Positions 10,351 through 29,102 of a stretch of 32,112 nt of DNA are shown here, piece after piece. Position numbers and translations under genes: made by a program. Origin of the DNA: Desulfuromonas sp. CSMB_57 (GTDB taxonomy: Bacteria > Desulfobacterota > Desulfuromonadia > Desulfuromonadales > Syntrophotaleaceae); NCBI RefSeq assembly GCF_020194955.2, contig NZ_JAFCIY020000007.1, positions 1 through 32,112 on the forward strand, in the 5' to 3' direction. The number at the start of each line of letters is the position of its first letter. Position 1 is the first letter of the stretch. The notes beneath the pieces were generated by a model. That model searched no databases, was not told the DNA's origin, and saw nothing but the letters and a program-made list of their open reading frames with translations.

Positions 10351-10587
10351 ATGGCGGCCATGAAAACCTCCGAAGAGACAAACCGGGAAAACCGCCTGGC
10401 CGAGCTGGAAGAGCGGGTCATGGAGTTGGAAATGCGCTTTACCCACCAGAGTCTCCAGCTCGAGGAATTGAGCGACGTGCTGCGGGACAACGCCGCCCGG
10501 TTGGCTCTCCTGCAGAGCCAGAATGCCGTGCTGCGGGATATGCTCGGCACTCTGGGGCCGCAGTTGGAAGAGTCGCCCGATGAGTGA
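10351..10587 (+). CDS. SlyX-like small coiled-coil protein
   Basis: 78 residues from ATG 10351 (a second ATG at 10360 is equally possible; neither has a strong ribosome site). The whole sequence is a heptad-patterned, Glu/Leu-rich helix: 'ENRLAELEERVMELEMRFTH' then 'QSLQLEELSDVL'. This matches the SlyX pattern, a small family of unknown function. Its TGA overlaps the start of the rhodanese gene by 8 bases, so the two are probably co-translated. Confidence 0.7.
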   Translation: MAAMKTSEETNRENRLAELEERVMELEMRFTHQSLQLEELSDVLRDNAARLALLQSQNAVLRDMLGTLGPQLEESPDE

Positions 10588-11092
10588 TGAAAGCCCGAAA
10601 TTGAGCCTGGTGCGGCCCCTGGTCGATGCCGCCCTGATGGTCGTGGTGGGCAGCCTGATCGGCTTGGCGGTCAACGGCCGTCTGCTCTGGGAGGTCCTGG
10701 AGCGGCATGCCTTGAGCCGCAACGACGAGCCGGTGGCCGAGGAACTGGCCACCCGTCTGCCCCTGCCCATCGGCCTGGAGGAATTGCGCGGTCTGCTGCC
10801 CGCCAACGCCCTGCTCATCGATGCCCGGCATCGGGAAAGCTATCGTCGTGGCCATCTGCCGGGAGCCCGAAATCTGCCCTGGGGCGATGCCGGCAAGCTG
10901 CTGCCGGCGTTGCGCGATGAAATCCCCCCCCAAACGACCCTGGTAGTCTACTGCAGCGGCTACGGTTGCGAGGATTCCTTTCTCCTGGCGCAGCGCCTGC
11001 TGCAGGACGGTTACCGGGATGTGAGGGTTTTCGAGGGCGGCTTGCCGGCTTGGCAGGCGGCCGGCCTGCCGTTGGAGGGAGTGCGGCCGTGA
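10580..11092 (+). CDS. membrane-anchored rhodanese-domain protein
   Basis: 170 residues from ATG 10580. An N-terminal hydrophobic segment (about residues 15-33, 'ALMVVVGSLIGLAV') anchors the protein. The rhodanese domain spans about 68-165, with 'LLIDARHRESYRRGHLPGA' (short form of the CH2A box) and active-site loop 'YCSGYGCEDS', whose first Cys is the expected catalytic residue. The end 'VRVFEGGLPAWQAAGLP' is the canonical closing motif. A role in persulfide transfer on the outer face of the membrane is inferred. It overlaps the next gene as GTGA (11089-11092), which ties it to the MauE-like protein. Confidence 0.87.
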   Translation: MSDESPKLSLVRPLVDAALMVVVGSLIGLAVNGRLLWEVLERHALSRNDEPVAEELATRLPLPIGLEELRGLLPANALLIDARHRESYRRGHLPGARNLPWGDAGKLLPALRDEIPPQTTLVVYCSGYGCEDSFLLAQRLLQDGYRDVRVFEGGLPAWQAAGLPLEGVRP

Positions 11093-18621: not shown

Positions 18622-19059
18622 ATGGATGAATTTATGCAGGCCGCTCTGGAAGAGGCGAAAAAGGGCTTGGCAGCCGGCGGCATTCCCATCGGATCCGTAT
18701 TGGTCCTGGACGGAAGAATCGTCGGCCGCGGGCATAACCAACGGGTGCAAAAAGGCAGTGTGGTACTGCATGCGGAAATGGACTGTCTGGAAAATGCGGG
18801 CCGTTTAAAGGCGGCTGATTATAAACGGTCGGTTCTCTACACGACCCTGTCGCCGTGCGATATGTGCAGTGGCGCGATTCTGCTCTACGGCATTCCCAAA
18901 GTGGTGATCGGTGAGAACAAAACTTTCCATGGGCCGGAGGCGTACCTGCAATCCCGAGGGGTGGAACTGGTCGTGGTCGACAGCCGGGAGTGCAAGCAGC
19001 TCCTGGGGCAATTCATCATGGCAAATCCGGATCTTTGGAACGAAGATATTGGAGCATGA
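18622..19059 (+). CDS. yeast-type cytosine deaminase (CMP/dCMP deaminase superfamily)
   Basis: 145 residues. The protein follows Saccharomyces Fcy1 along its length: 'GRGHNQRVQKGS', 'LENAGRL', 'LYTTLSPCDMCSGAI', 'YLQSRGVELVVVD' and the C-terminal 'WNEDIGA' all have direct counterparts. The zinc ligands are His50, Cys79 and Cys82 and the proton shuttle is Glu52 (HAE in place of yeast HGE). The C-terminal Asp that contacts cytosine in the yeast enzyme is kept. The likely reaction is cytosine to uracil, which would feed the same pool as udp and cdd. The bacterial codA type is unrelated. GGGGG lies about 8 bases before the ATG. It converges on the Sec rhodanese with a 3-base gap. Confidence 0.82.
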   Translation: MDEFMQAALEEAKKGLAAGGIPIGSVLVLDGRIVGRGHNQRVQKGSVVLHAEMDCLENAGRLKAADYKRSVLYTTLSPCDMCSGAILLYGIPKVVIGENKTFHGPEAYLQSRGVELVVVDSRECKQLLGQFIMANPDLWNEDIGA

Positions 19060-19062
19060 CGG

Positions 19063-19467
19063 TTACTTCGGGACCACCGGATAACCGGCTTCGCGCCATT
19101 CCTGCCAGCCCCCCTTGAGGGCGTACACATCCGGGTACCCCATCGAAATAAGCATCCGCGCCAGACCGGCGCTGGTTGCTTCATCCGGTCAAGAACAGTA
19201 AAGGACCAGGGTCTTCGACGCCGGATATTTGTTTTTCCAATCGTCGAATTTTTCCGGAGCCTCCCGGACTGCACCGGCTATTTTCTGGTCGCTCTCCGTC
19301 CATTCCATGTCGGATCGCGCATCGATGATAACCAATTCAGCCGAACCGAGCCGAGCCTTCAGCTGCTCCTTCGCCATACGGGGCGCTTGGCCCTGGCTGG
19401 ATGTCTCCATTCCGGCACATCCAAAAACCAAAATGAGCAGAAGAATCGCCAGCCATTTCCCTTTCAT
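19063..19467 (-). CDS. probable selenocysteine-containing rhodanese-like lipoprotein (in-frame TGA)
   Basis: 134 residues if the TGA at 19189-19191 is read as selenocysteine (residue 93); otherwise the frame is cut to 92 residues. The N-terminus 'MKGKWLAILLLILVFGC' looks like a lipoprotein signal. 'LVIIDARSDMEW' (about 45-57) is the rhodanese start, 'TLVLYCS-U-PDEATSAG' is the active-site loop, and after the TGA the same frame continues perfectly with 'LARMLISMGYPDVYALKGGWQEWREAGYP', the canonical rhodanese end (listed here as a position reference, residues about 102-130). Continued homology across the stop, plus a SECIS-like hairpin, argues for recoding and not decay. AGGAGG precedes the ATG. 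The alternative is a nonsense mutation in a cysteine codon. Confidence 0.78.
19152..19184 (-). promoter_or_regulatory. bacterial SECIS-like stem-loop downstream of the in-frame TGA
   Basis: On the minus strand, 21 bases after the TGA comes the loop GGTCT (19163-19167), the same apical pentamer as in the E. coli fdhF SECIS. It is closed by GCGCC/GGCGC (5 bp). Beyond a bulged A, CC pairs with GG, and after an A-A mismatch AAGCA pairs with TGCTT, giving about 12 bp. Loop sequence, distance from TGA and a bulge in the stem are those expected for SelB recognition. Confidence 0.7.
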
Positions 19468-19742: not shown

Positions 19743-21287
19743 ATGAAAAAGGAAGCTGTTTTGCAGGCGGTCCTGGCGGGGAATGCCCTGCCAACCCTGT
19801 CCCCGGTTGCCTCGCGGCTGATCTCTCTGACGGCTCGAGAGGATACCACCATCAGCGACATTGCCGAGCTGGTTTCCAAGGATATTTCCCTTTCCGCCAA
19901 AATCCTTAAAGTCGTCAATTCGGTCTTATACAGCTTCCCCCAATCCATCGTCACTATCCAGCAGGCCGCCTCGATTCTCGGCACCAATGCCGTGCGCAGT
20001 CTGGTGCTGTCCTTTTCTTTCTTGCAACCGTCCAAAGGAAACGATGGGTTCGACTACTTGAACTTCTGGTCCCAGTCCCTCGGCGAGGCGGTAGCCGCCC
20101 GCAGGCTCATGGAGGCCATCGACAAGAATGCCGCCGAAGAGGTCTTTGTCGCCGGTTTGTTGCAGAACCTGGGAATTTTGATATTGGCCCGCGCCTATCC
20201 CGAGCTCTACCGCCAGGTGGAGCAAGTGGTTGCAGGGGAGGAACAGAAGCGCTGCCGGGCCGAAATGGATCTCATAGGCGCCGACCACGCCTACATCGGG
20301 GGGGAAGTCGCCCGCAACTGGGGGTTTCCGGATGCCTTGGTGCTGCCGATTTTTTTTCATGCCGATCCCAACAGGTATGATGGGCGCGATCCGCAAATTC
20401 GTCGGCTGTGCCAGGTCGTCAATCTTGCCGGTTTGCTGTCCCAGGTCTATCACAGCAAGACACCCGAGGCGATTGTCAACGAATTCAAGGTCCAGGTTCG
20501 GCAACAGTTCGGGTTGGAAGAGCGTTACCTCAAGGATTTTCTGGAGAATGTACATGCCGAGGTCAACCAGGTAGCGGAAAGTTTCGAACTCAACATCGAT
20601 GAAAAGAAATCCATCACCGAAATCCTGCAGATTGCCAACGCCGAATTGAGCGTTCTCAATCTCAGCTACGAAGAAATGAATCGGTCATTGGTGGAAAAGA
20701 CGGTCAAGCTGGAGTTGCTGACCGCCGAACTGGAGCGAAAAAACCGGCAGCTCGAACAGCTGGCGAACGTCGATGGCTTGACTGGGGCTTATAACCATCG
20801 ATATTTTCAAGATTTTCTCGACCGGGAGCTAAAACGTTCCCGAAAACGATCTCATTCCTTGGCTCTGGTTCTGGCCGACATCGATAATTTCAAGGCGTTC
20901 AACGATGCCTATGGCCACTTGGTTGGCGACAAAGTGTTGCGCCAGTTTTGCGATGGGTGCCGTGGCGAGTTGCGTGAATACGATCTGTTTGCCCGGTATG
21001 GCGGCGAGGAATTTGCTATCGTGCTGCCCGAGACGAGCGCCGAGGAAGCCGAGGCCGTGGCAGAAAAACTGCGCCTGGCCGTGGCCCGCCGCAGATTTGA
21101 ACACAATTTGGAAGTCAGCAATCTTACCGCCAGTTTCGGGGTGTTTGTTTTGTCCCCTGAAAATGCGGAAGTCACTAAAAACGATATGATCGATTTTGCC
21201 GACCAGGCCCTTTTTCAAGCCAAGAAAAAAGGGCGCAATCAGGTCGTGGTTTACAGCCCCAAAAAGAAGAATTGGTTCGGGCGTTGA
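19743..21287 (+). CDS. HDOD-GGDEF signalling protein, probable diguanylate cyclase
   Basis: 514 residues. An N-terminal HDOD domain (about 10-210) starts 'LPTLSPVASRLISL' with 'ISLSAKILKVVNS', a regulatory relative of HD phosphohydrolases. A helical linker (about 280-340) with heptad-like 'EKTVKLELLTAELERKNRQLEQL' (spread over that region) leads to the GGDEF domain (about 345-505). The active site is GGEEF at 420-424, so cyclase activity (2 GTP to c-di-GMP) is expected. REYD at 411-414 is a proper RxxD inhibitory site. AGGAG precedes the ATG. The last 155 bases of the gene and about 95 bases beyond it recur as an imperfect copy at 24,196. Confidence 0.93.
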   Translation: MKKEAVLQAVLAGNALPTLSPVASRLISLTAREDTTISDIAELVSKDISLSAKILKVVNSVLYSFPQSIVTIQQAASILGTNAVRSLVLSFSFLQPSKGNDGFDYLNFWSQSLGEAVAARRLMEAIDKNAAEEVFVAGLLQNLGILILARAYPELYRQVEQVVAGEEQKRCRAEMDLIGADHAYIGGEVARNWGFPDALVLPIFFHADPNRYDGRDPQIRRLCQVVNLAGLLSQVYHSKTPEAIVNEFKVQVRQQFGLEERYLKDFLENVHAEVNQVAESFELNIDEKKSITEILQIANAELSVLNLSYEEMNRSLVEKTVKLELLTAELERKNRQLEQLANVDGLTGAYNHRYFQDFLDRELKRSRKRSHSLALVLADIDNFKAFNDAYGHLVGDKVLRQFCDGCRGELREYDLFARYGGEEFAIVLPETSAEEAEAVAEKLRLAVARRRFEHNLEVSNLTASFGVFVLSPENAEVTKNDMIDFADQALFQAKKKGRNQVVVYSPKKKNWFGR

Positions 21288-23913: not shown

Positions 23914-24188
23914 TTACCGATACACCTCATCATGACTCCCGATGTCGAAAAGAACCATTTCCTGTTCGGTAATCAACAAGGTCAGAGTGATGCGATAGCT
24001 GCATGTGAGGCTGGCCGCGTGGCAATCGGAAAGGATGCCGATCAGGGGGTGGAGTTCAAGATGGGGATGGAAGAGGTCTTGTTGCAGGTCAGCCAACACC
24101 TTGCCGAAGCAAGGCTTCAAATCGGGATGTTTTTTAAGAATTTTCGCGCCTGCCGCAGAAACTGTTGCGGTGTGGTGAGGGTGAACAT
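23914..24188 (-). pseudogene. frameshifted RelE/YafQ-family toxin
   Basis: Reading from ATG 24188 gives 'MFTLTTPQQFLRQARKFLK', then the frame breaks. Restoring one base at the run near 24,130 (the second copy has AAAAAAGCAT where this has AAAAAACAT) gives a continuous 91-residue protein, with 'DLFHPHLELHPLIGIL', 'YRITLTLLI' and the family's closing 'FDIGSHDEVYR'. That end is diagnostic for RelE/StbE-type mRNA interferases. No antitoxin precedes it; the sequence just upstream switches abruptly to a GGDEF gene tail. It is therefore an orphan, inactivated remnant. Confidence 0.8.
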
Positions 24189-24195
24189 CACGCCG

Positions 24196-24350
24196 GTTTT
24201 GGAGTGTTTGTTTTGTCCCCTGAAAATGCGGAAGTCACTAAAAACGATATGATCGATTTTGCCGACCAGACTCTCTTCCAAGCCAAGAAAAGAGGGCACA
24301 ATCAGGTCGTGATTTACAGCCCCACAAAGAAGAATTGGTTCGGACGTTGA
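24196..24350 (+). pseudogene. 3' fragment of an HDOD-GGDEF gene (direct repeat copy B)
   Basis: The last 51 codons of a diguanylate cyclase gene, homologous to 21,133-21,287 with no indels. Five amino acids differ, for example Ala to Thr and Arg to His, and homology continues about 95 bases past the stop to around 24,445. No start or catalytic GGDEF motif remains. It begins exactly where the toxin-locus homology ends (24,195), marking a recombination junction. The differences from copy A suggest it came from a paralogue, not a recent local duplication. Confidence 0.85.
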
Positions 24351-24560
24351 GCCTTTTTCGCGGGAGTTCATGGTTGGTGGCAGGGTTGCTGGAATTTCGT
24401 AGCAGAATTACGCGAAATCCTACGAGAGTATCCGTTTGTTAGATCCCCATCGGTGTTCTTCGGAAGATTCAAGGCCTGTTGCACTGCTAAATTTATTCTG
24501 GAAGATTGCCTTTACTTGAGGCGAGTCCGACGAGCCCGCTGAATGAGGCGGCGTCAAATA

Positions 24561-27190: not shown

Positions 27191-29102
27191 GTATGCAGTA
27201 ACAGTTGAATATCTAACGGGTTAAAGTCCCGTCCGGGGAGTTGTCCGTTCACCCCGGTAGCTCAAGGGAGCGGCGTTCTGGTAACAGAGGGTCGTAAGTT
27301 CCCAATTGGCAAAACAGCAGGCCGTAACGCAAGTGAACCTACAGGTAGCCTCGTAAATTGATCGAAGATGCCGACCCTGTGGTCAGAAGGGGAAGGCCGC
27401 TGCCTATTGGTCCTGATAACGGAATCGGCCAATAGGATCTTCCGGGGTAGCAGGGACGGCATGTTGTGGAAGATGCTCAACCCAGTGCTGGAGGCCCGGT
27501 ATGGTGGCGCTGGAGGAGCGTCAACCGGCGCGTATAAGGCAACGAAGTCGCGTTGGGCTGTACCGGGAGTCGGAGGGGTCCATAGTACCGCTTGAGGGCA
27601 CGGGACAGCATAACCCTGTCCGAGGGAAGGGACCCTGCTTTGTTCGCGCAACCGAAGAGTGGAGGATGAGGGGATTGCATTCATGCTAGCCACCCCGGAA
27701 AGCATCAGGACACTACAGAGGAAGCTTTACCGCAAGGCCAAGCAGGACTCGGCCTTTCGCTTCTACGCCTTGTACGACAAGGTATATCGGGCCGACATCC
27801 TCAGTCATGCCTATCGCCTTGTCCGCGCCAACAAGGGGAGCGCCGGGATAGACGGCCTCTCCTTCGAGGCCATCGAGACGGGAGAAAGGGAAACCGCTTT
27901 TCTGGCGGGGCTGGAAGAAGCACTGAGAAACAAGACGTACAAACCCGATCCGGTGAAACGGGTCATGATACCAAAAAGGGACGGGAGTAAACGTCCTCTG
28001 GGTATTCCGACCATTCGGGACCGGGTGGCGCAGATGGCCGTGAAACTGGTCATTGAGCCGATCTTCGAAGCGGACTTTTGCGAAACCTCGTATGGATTCC
28101 GGCCGAAGAAGTCAGCCCATGACGCAGTCGATGACGTAGCCTATCACCTCAACTGTGGGTATACGGAAATCATCGATGCCGACGTAAGCAAATACTTCGA
28201 CACCATCCCCCATGCCAACATCTTGGCGGTATTCGCGGAACGCATCTGTGATGGCGAAATACTGCGCCTGCTCAAGATGTGGCTCAAGGCCCCAATAATG
28301 GAGGTGGGCAAGGATGGTAAGAAGCGGAACGTCGGAGGCGGCAAGGGTAATCGAAACGGTACACCGCAGGGCGGGGTCATCTCACCACTGTTATCCAATC
28401 TCTACCTGCACATCTTGGACAGGATATGGGAGCGGAGAAACCTGCAACTGCGCCTGGGAGCCCGCCGCGTCAGATACGCGGACGATATTGTCTTGCTGTG
28501 TCGGAGATCGAAGTCCGGCCAAGCCATGACAGTCCTGCAGCAGATACTGGATCGTTTGGAACTCACCTTGAATGAAGCCAAGACGAAGGTGGTCAACGCC
28601 AACAAGGAGAGTTTCGACTTTCTCGGCTTCACAATCCGGATCGGACAAAGCAGAAGAACGGGGAATTGCTATCCCCATGTCCAGCCGGCGAAGAAGTCCC
28701 TACAAAGTGTCAAAGACCGAGTAACCGAACTCACGAAACGAACGCGAACGGTAAAGCCGTTAACCTGGATAGTGAATGAAGTCAACGCCACCGTGCGAGG
28801 CTGGGTGGGCTACTTTCATTATCGAAATTGCAGCAGTGCGCTTAAGAGCCTCAGACATCACGTTGAGGAGCGACTGAGAACACACCTGCGGAAGCGGCAC
28901 AAGGTCAAGGACAGGGGGGCTGGATACTACCGCTTCGGCAGTAGGAAGCTCTACGCTACGTACGGACTGTACAAAGTGCCAACCACAGCGGGCTGGACGA
29001 CAGCGCATGCCTTGCGGTGAAGAACATCGGAAAGCCGTGTGCGGGAAAACTGCATGCACGGTTTGATGAGGGAGGGCAGGAAATACCTGCCCTCTACTCT
29101 AC
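27191..29102 (+). mobile_element. group II intron with encoded reverse transcriptase/maturase
   Basis: The region carries a long structured 5' leader (about 490 bases, with paired segments such as CCGGGG / CACCCCGG) before the maturase. After the maturase comes a domain V-like hairpin (about 29,034-29,066): AAGCCGTG / CACGGTTT with the catalytic AGC and a GAAAA-type tip. It is followed by a domain VI hairpin GAGGGCAGG / CCTGCCCTC ending in TACTCTAC. The 3' end near 29,102 is fairly well placed. The 5' end is uncertain; GTATGC at 27,191 is only a guess. Confidence 0.8.
27683..29020 (+). CDS. ltrA: group II intron reverse transcriptase/maturase
   Basis: 445 residues from ATG 27683 (GAGGGG upstream; another ATG lies 8 codons earlier). 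The RT domain has 'ANKGSAGIDGLSFEAIE', 'PLGIPTIRDRVAQMA', 'SYGFRPKKSAHDAV', 'DADVSKYFDTIPH', 'GTPQGGVISPLLSNLYL' and the catalytic 'RYADDIVLL', all intact. The maturase (X) domain follows with 'FDFLGFTIRI', 'VNATVRGWVGYFHY' and 'RLRTHLRKRHKVKDRG' near the end. No HNH endonuclease domain is present, so mobility would rely on a free 3' end at the target. It helps intron splicing and retrohoming. It appears functional. Confidence 0.95.
   Translation: MLATPESIRTLQRKLYRKAKQDSAFRFYALYDKVYRADILSHAYRLVRANKGSAGIDGLSFEAIETGERETAFLAGLEEALRNKTYKPDPVKRVMIPKRDGSKRPLGIPTIRDRVAQMAVKLVIEPIFEADFCETSYGFRPKKSAHDAVDDVAYHLNCGYTEIIDADVSKYFDTIPHANILAVFAERICDGEILRLLKMWLKAPIMEVGKDGKKRNVGGGKGNRNGTPQGGVISPLLSNLYLHILDRIWERRNLQLRLGARRVRYADDIVLLCRRSKSGQAMTVLQQILDRLELTLNEAKTKVVNANKESFDFLGFTIRIGQSRRTGNCYPHVQPAKKSLQSVKDRVTELTKRTRTVKPLTWIVNEVNATVRGWVGYFHYRNCSSALKSLRHHVEERLRTHLRKRHKVKDRGAGYYRFGSRKLYATYGLYKVPTTAGWTTAHALR

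Follow-up and report, generated by a model that had tools for sequence, protein, structure and literature searches.

A Predicted C-x-U Rhodanese-Like Selenoprotein of Family NF041203 in Desulfuromonas sp. CSMB_57 and Its U-x-U Relatives

Introduction

Rhodanese-like proteins carrying a CxU motif are already included in the published lists of predicted selenoproteins. PMC13188914 reports a "Rhodanese-like domain-containing protein form 3 (NF041203, CxU)", with TKB26178.1 as the example, and the same sequence exemplifies the "COG0607 form 2 (CxU)" of PMC9312934, which credits the prediction of the CxU rhodanese to Zhang and Gladyshev 2005 and describes the functions of most such predicted selenoproteins as unclear. 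The accessible text of PMC9312934 and PMC13188914 gives no biochemical function for NF041203. Another rhodanese selenoprotein, the rhodanese/DsbD fusion-like TsoB (NF045694), belongs to a separate family, being distinguished by its UxxxxU motif (PMC13188914) and by the DsbD fusion. In Burkholderia pyrrocinia, a DedA-rhodanese fusion (L127, WP_258285231.1) has the loop of the protein described here with Cys replacing Sec (YCACPNE); it differs in having a DedA membrane domain attached and in lacking selenocysteine. The classical thiosulfate sulfurtransferases of the GlpE/PspE type possess an active-site loop with a basic residue, of the CxxGxR type; among them, the single-domain GlpE of Escherichia coli (1gmx) is cytoplasmic and Cys-based, and its active-site loop is unlike that of the protein described here.

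The window analysed in this work, i.e., the whole stretch of 32,112 nucleotides from Desulfuromonas sp. CSMB_57, harbors a rhodanese-like gene interrupted by an in-frame TGA. A preliminary description of this DNA had stated that selenocysteine-containing rhodaneses had been predicted before, and this statement was sound, since both PMC9312934 and PMC13188914 list the CxU rhodanese, with which the window gene shares the family accession and the CxU motif. The likeness to NF041203 (rhodanese_LYCAU) consists of a full-length match over the cut-off, a Y-C-x-U-P motif, and a signal-like N-terminus; the window protein reads LYCSU rather than the LYCAU of the family name. The match to TsoB is weak (33.7 bits vs. 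a cut-off of 805).

Results

Structure of the Gene and of Its Reading Frame

The features of the locus are listed in Table 1. The gene starts with the ATG at 19467, upstream of which a GGAGG-containing stretch is located, and the TGA is the sole interruption of the rhodanese frame running from 19467 to 19063, whose translation is MKGKWLAILLLILVFGCAG...KTLVLYCSUPDEATSAGLARMLISMGYPDVYALKGGWQEWREAGYPVVPK. Each of the two parts is independently recognised by Pfam Rhodanese, with E 6.6e-06 for residues 1-92 alone and E 1.9e-05 for the 41 residues 3' of the TGA taken alone, the whole 134-codon frame reaching E 1.1e-15. These results bear out the preliminary description, according to which the frame is intact on both sides of the TGA; its coordinates, residue counts, and placing of the active-site loop were also correct, and the strand was absent from it. 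An annotation ending at the TGA yields a product of 92 residues, devoid of Sec93 and of the final third of the protein.

The frame scores 162.6 bits against NCBIfam NF041203, "rhodanese-related (seleno)protein" (cut-off 115), with residues 13-134 aligned on positions 5-126 of the 126 of the profile, and the score would drop to 87.2 bits if the frame ended at the TGA; the Y-C-x-U/C motif of the family is present as LYCSUPDEATSA. On the basis of this full-length match and of the reviews listing the CxU form, the gene is classified by sequence as a new member of a family that is itself already catalogued. It is very probable that the TGA at codon 93 is read as selenocysteine and that the gene encodes an NF041203-type selenoprotein.

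Table 1. Coordinates of the features of the rhodanese-like gene in the window.
Feature	Position	Strand	Details and basis
Predicted rhodanese-like selenoprotein gene	19060..19467	minus	134 codons and TAA stop (19062-19060); Pfam Rhodanese and NF041203
Putative N-terminal export signal, lipobox-like LVFG-C17	19417..19467	minus	Cys17 codon 19419-19417; direct reading and rough pattern
Cys91 codon, conserved YC, start of the active-site loop	19195..19197	minus	Frame, alignment, and model
In-frame TGA, codon 93	19189..19191	minus	C91-S92-U93; TGA in the same column in 79/106 homologous genes
SECIS-type hairpin	19144..19187	minus	Outer pairs 19187-19184/19147-19144; middle pairs within 19181-19174/19157-19150
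Conserved apical stem-loop GCGCC-GGTCT-GGCGC	19158..19172	minus	Starts 16 bases 3' of the TGA; 5 pairs; covariation

The rhodanese gene lies alone between a convergent deaminase gene, which ends with an ordinary TGA stop (19057-19059), and a divergent HDOD-GGDEF gene. Further along the window, at about 24117-24371, a frame ends in the peptide CLFCPLKMRKSLKTI, which also terminates a frame that covers the GGDEF gene at 21189; this common terminal peptide suggests that the former region is a duplicated fragment of the GGDEF gene. Another rhodanese-domain protein, of the ordinary kind, is encoded in the window at 10523-11089 on the plus strand; it has the loop YCSGYGCEDS and, by eye, a membrane segment at its N-terminus.

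Hairpin Downstream of the TGA

The 55 nucleotides counted from the TGA fold with -23.5 kcal/mol (z -2.43), a value equalled by 1 of 200 shuffled sequences. The apical stem is composed of five base pairs (GCGCC/GGCGC) closed by the loop GGUCU, beyond which one bulged base and one mismatch are followed by two and five further base pairs; on the whole, the hairpin counts 12 inner pairs and four outer ones. The bulged stem of about 12 bp with a GGTCT loop, noticed downstream of the TGA in the preliminary description, is thus real according to RNA folding.

The covariation of the stem was analysed on 41 TGA genes, including that of the window, corresponding to 40 distinct sequences. Standard pairs are found in all of the 200 pair cells (100%) of the five-pair stem, and three of the five pairs show two-sided changes, one of them, for instance, being UA in 19 sequences, CG in 15, and UG in 6. 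None of 500 shuffles was as good, and shifting the 3' arm by one to three columns lowered the paired cells to 21.5-51.5%. At a fixed spacing, 78 of the 79 TGA genes have all five pairs of the stem, and the remaining one has four of them. None of the eight Cys-form genes has a complete stem (one to three of the five pairs are formed), and among the 27 homologous genes with a non-TGA codon at this column it is complete in three, namely the identical and distant Asp forms L075 and L076 and the Ser form L111.

In bacterial selenoproteins, the SECIS is a hairpin just past the UGA with an apical loop of the GU type, the feature that is recognised by SelB. Such a hairpin, with the loop GGUCU, is found here; among the 79 TGA genes, positions 2-3 of the loop read GU 66 times and GG 13 times. 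A scan of the window with Rfam at gathering thresholds gave no SECIS; its three hits are a tRNA and two group II intron parts, the latter lying at 27223-29102 on the plus strand around an ORF (27659-29020) that is reverse transcriptase-like by eye.

Distribution of the Residues at the Selenocysteine Column

In total, 106 homologous genes, including the window's own (L022), were read at base level. The codon at the Sec column is TGA in 79 and Cys in eight of them; in the other 19, it encodes Ser (eight), Gly (five), Asp (four), Ala (one), or Val (one). When 395 genomes were drawn from the phylum, the best matches gave the loci L077-L106, and L107-L126 were hand-picked from the same draw, mainly for zero or two TGA; because of this choice, the 27 non-TGA genes out of 106 and the 12 U-x-U genes out of 79 TGA genes are not frequencies. 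In this draw, all of the 12 rows marked with two TGA were examined, and the rows marked with none were read only in part. The NF041203 family is widespread in the phylum, with 61 of the 395 genomes drawn having a match over the cut-off. The order-wide search returned matches at E 1e-10 in 58 of 136 genomes; among the 73 matches listed, 63 contain exactly one in-frame TGA and 10 contain none, the position of the TGA being checked at the loci read and the TGA count alone being used elsewhere. The plasmid search returned 29 records, all with less than 60% identity.

Some of the loci have peculiarities of their own. L058 (Desulfacinum hydrothermale) and L086, which coincide in the part read, have a second in-frame stop, a TAA, about 57 bases 3' of the Sec TGA, which is due either to decay or to a sequence error; because of this extra TAA, L058 was left out of the protein alignments and kept in the hairpin counts. 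L052, with no start codon in the locus, is also outside the protein alignments, and L061 and L064 are near-identical in the part read. In a genome of the same order, L039 (1034-1893) harbors a tandem pair of Sec-form rhodanese genes.

The preliminary description had expected a Cys at the position of the TGA in relatives. Cys is indeed found there in five Acidobacteriota loci (e.g., YCSCP and YCSCPDEATS), as well as in L109 and L110 (from the phylum, over the cut-off), in the distant match L124, and in the Burkholderia DedA-rhodanese fusion; the Cys of the conserved YC of the family is, however, residue 91, the Sec lying two residues later. To judge from these sequences, the Cys/Sec exchange among relatives is the pattern expected of a selenoprotein. 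A residue other than Cys or Sec, which had been regarded as evidence against selenocysteine, was encountered in part, in the 19 genes mentioned above, all the others having TGA or Cys. Seven of the Ser forms (L107, L108, L111-L114, and L123) exceed the NF041203 cut-off; in six of them the site is occupied by TCA, one base away from TGA, and six of the seven (all except L111) are devoid of the complete stem. They sit in five genomes, four of which also hold a TGA form, and they are likely to be paralogues that lost Sec. Since the window gene has both the TGA and the hairpin, the Ser forms have no bearing on it. One of them, L108, also lacks Cys91, so that neither of the two active-site residues appears to be strictly required in every paralogue.

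Selenocysteine Machinery and Decoding of the TGA

The genome (3.14 Mb in 94 contigs, listed as 100% complete with 1.52% contamination) contains selA (626.5 bits), selB (379.3 bits), and, immediately before selB, a tRNA-Sec (79.2 bits; anticodon tca according to ARAGORN), together with two selD matches over the cut-off. The four genes whose presence had been proposed as a check are therefore all found. One of the two selD copies (L019, 1501-2448, C59) bears an in-frame TGA, which suggests that its SelD is probably itself a selenoprotein; the other copy (L018) is TGA-free. At E 1e-60 or better, selB was detected in 25 of the 27 Sec-form genomes tested, the exceptions being G132 (87% complete) and G028, which is listed as 99% complete and carries the Sec form L038. 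Among the 38 chosen genomes, selB was found in 36, including all of the 11 where non-Sec forms alone were seen; hence, the presence of selB failed to discriminate between Sec and non-Sec forms.

Two other explanations of the TGA have to be weighed against its decoding as selenocysteine. A nonsense mutation might have ended the rhodanese gene at residue 92, turning it into a pseudogene, in agreement with the fact that the frame ends at the TGA under the standard code; against this stand the TGA in the same column of 79 of the 106 homologous genes with a conserved downstream frame, the covarying hairpin, and the 41 residues past the TGA that still match Rhodanese alone. The TGA being common to relatives and the hairpin covarying, the pseudogene was rejected, and its probability is practically nil. 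The TGA might also be read through by near-cognate suppression, the hairpin being a mere stop-codon readthrough element. Such a mechanism requires no Sec machinery, and the sense replacements are not restricted to Cys, given the seven Ser homologues over the cut-off; nonetheless, the occurrence of Cys at this column in eight homologues and of Trp or Arg in none, the complete Sec machinery of the genome, and the ordinary TGA stop next door make readthrough highly improbable. An alternative genetic code was likewise considered and is not supported, as TGA terminates the adjacent deaminase gene and a tRNA-Sec is present.

U-x-U Relatives

Twelve of the 79 TGA genes carry TGA at both the conserved Cys and the Sec positions (U-x-U). 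These genes (L085, L091, L095, L106, and L115-L122) represent all of the 12 matches with two TGA in the draw of 395 genomes. A tree was constructed on 87 proteins (the 79 TGA and the eight Cys forms), in which every Sec was replaced by Cys to keep the motif from driving the grouping. When mapped onto this tree, the U-x-U label requires nine changes, at least five of which are forced by well-supported branches; shuffled labels required 11.5 changes on average, and 11 of 500 shuffles were as low, the columns being few and the support values rough. Since nine changes are needed, the second replacement of Cys by Sec seems to have happened, or to have been reversed, several times, and it is likely that the family repeatedly converts its second active-site Cys to Sec. 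In PMC13188914, a review of 2026, the table assigns to NF041203 the value 1 in the column taken as the Sec number, while the relatives described here would have two; the term "UxU" is absent from the main text of that paper, and no UxU rhodanese was found in the literature searched, which comprised full texts, titles, and the starts of abstracts, most subscription papers lying outside it.

Export Signal

The sequence MKGKWLAILLLILVFG-C17 is lipobox-like by eye and with a rough pattern. The same pattern detects a lipobox-like Cys in 10 of the 78 Sec-form genes, among them that of the window, and none in the other 68, which distinguishes the window protein from most of the family. A hydrophobic N-terminal stretch is visible by eye in the Sec-form proteins examined, except for L025, which has none, and L052, which is cut off. 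The protein is therefore likely to be exported to the periplasm, and lipid anchoring at Cys17 is plausible. The preliminary description considered such an export unusual for a Sec sulfurtransferase; this does not hold, hydrophobic N-termini being common to the Sec-form relatives examined.

Fold and Active Site

The AlphaFold model, based on 14 sequences, has a mean pLDDT of 87.3 and a rhodanese fold, which superimposes on 3tp9 with Z 16.9 (rmsd 1.7 over 102 residues) and on GlpE (1gmx), with which the fold is shared, with Z 15.6 (rmsd 2.6 over 106 residues). A strand spans residues 86-90 and a helix residues 97-108, so that the segment C-S-U-P-D-E between them corresponds to a loop. In the alignment of 44 proteins, whose members were chosen as C-x-U and C-x-C forms, three positions are invariant, namely Y90, C91, and position 93, which is occupied by Sec in 39 proteins and by Cys in five. 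Of the 79 TGA genes, 67 encode Cys at residue 91 and the other 12 encode Sec. The loop C-S-U-P-D-E-A-T contains neither Arg nor Lys and no CxxGxR pattern, so that it is not a loop of the GlpE/PspE type; the loop of 6mxv has a basic residue (CGGGFR).

The two candidate nucleophiles are favoured by different lines of evidence. In the gapless profile alignment, residue 93 faces the Cys of the loop YCGGGFRSA in 6mxv and would be the classical nucleophile. The strand and the helix of the model favour residue 91 instead, as does the retention of Cys91 in those homologues whose residue 93 is Gly, Ser, Val, or Ala (with the only exception of L108).

Gene Neighborhood of the Relatives

The flanks of 71 Sec-form genes were surveyed over about 1.5 kb or 2.5 kb, depending on the locus, and over shorter distances at contig ends. 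The commonest neighbor is a membrane protein of about 430 amino acids, which is encoded upstream in the same orientation in 16 of the 71 loci (e.g., L062, L087, and L092), mostly immediately before the gene; its longest copy had no Pfam match at E 0.001, and no copy was detected next to the gene of the window. Second in size is a cluster of the aconitase/leuC type (by eye), located downstream in 11 loci that belong to one group of relatives. In four loci (L085, L089, L091, and L095), three of whose four rhodaneses are UxU, the gene immediately downstream encodes a DUF547 protein, and a fifth DUF547 match is about 2.1 kb upstream. For the window's gene, this survey revealed no informative gene partner.

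Discussion

The proposed sequence of events is as follows. SelB and tRNA-Sec would decode the UGA at codon 93 as selenocysteine, directed by the hairpin just downstream; in the exported protein, Cys91 and Sec93 might form a C-x-U redox pair in the periplasm, in which one of the two accepts the sulfane or disulfide sulfur of a substrate while its partner resolves it via a Cys91-Sec93 selenenylsulfide that a periplasmic reductase would then reset. The redox pair is favoured because two chalcogens are nearly adjacent, family members exist with selenium in place of either of them, basic residues are missing from the loop, and export is probable. If Cys91 and Sec93 are seen as a redox pair, the protein is better read as a reductase than as a classical sulfurtransferase, and we tentatively propose a periplasmic persulfide, polysulfide, or disulfide reductase acting via a C-x-U selenenylsulfide, a function that is possible and that appears more likely than that of a classical thiosulfate:cyanide sulfurtransferase.

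In the case of a classical sulfurtransferase, the persulfide formed on Sec93 or Cys91 would be handed to cyanide or to a thiol acceptor with no redox pair involved, as the rhodanese fold of the model and the position of residue 93 opposite the Cys of 6mxv in the gapless profile alignment might indicate. This role is rather doubtful in view of the loop devoid of Arg/Lys and of the CxxGxR pattern, and of the Cys or Sec found at residue 91 in 79 of 79 TGA genes, which points to a pair; the missing basic residue speaks against a textbook sulfurtransferase and proves no alternative. The C-x-U motif might otherwise represent a peroxidase or a soft-metal site, i.e., the protein would be a periplasmic selenoprotein dealing with peroxide or with metals and metalloids. 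CxU motifs do occur in other selenoprotein families of PMC13188914, and the probable exported location would suit such a role; among the loci surveyed, however, no neighbor or homologue is so assigned, and the fold lends it no direct support, so that it is an unlikely explanation.

The reductase proposal and the U-x-U relatives have a bearing on the family as a whole. If the family does convert its second active-site Cys to Sec, a rhodanese-fold site with two selenium atoms would arise from two UGA codons six bases apart, both 5' of one hairpin, and the C-x-U of the window protein would represent one state of an ongoing Cys-to-Sec series, which would argue that both residues are catalytic. A small exported protein available in both C-x-U and U-x-U forms would permit a direct test of the role of a selenenylsulfide or diselenide in periplasmic sulfur chemistry.
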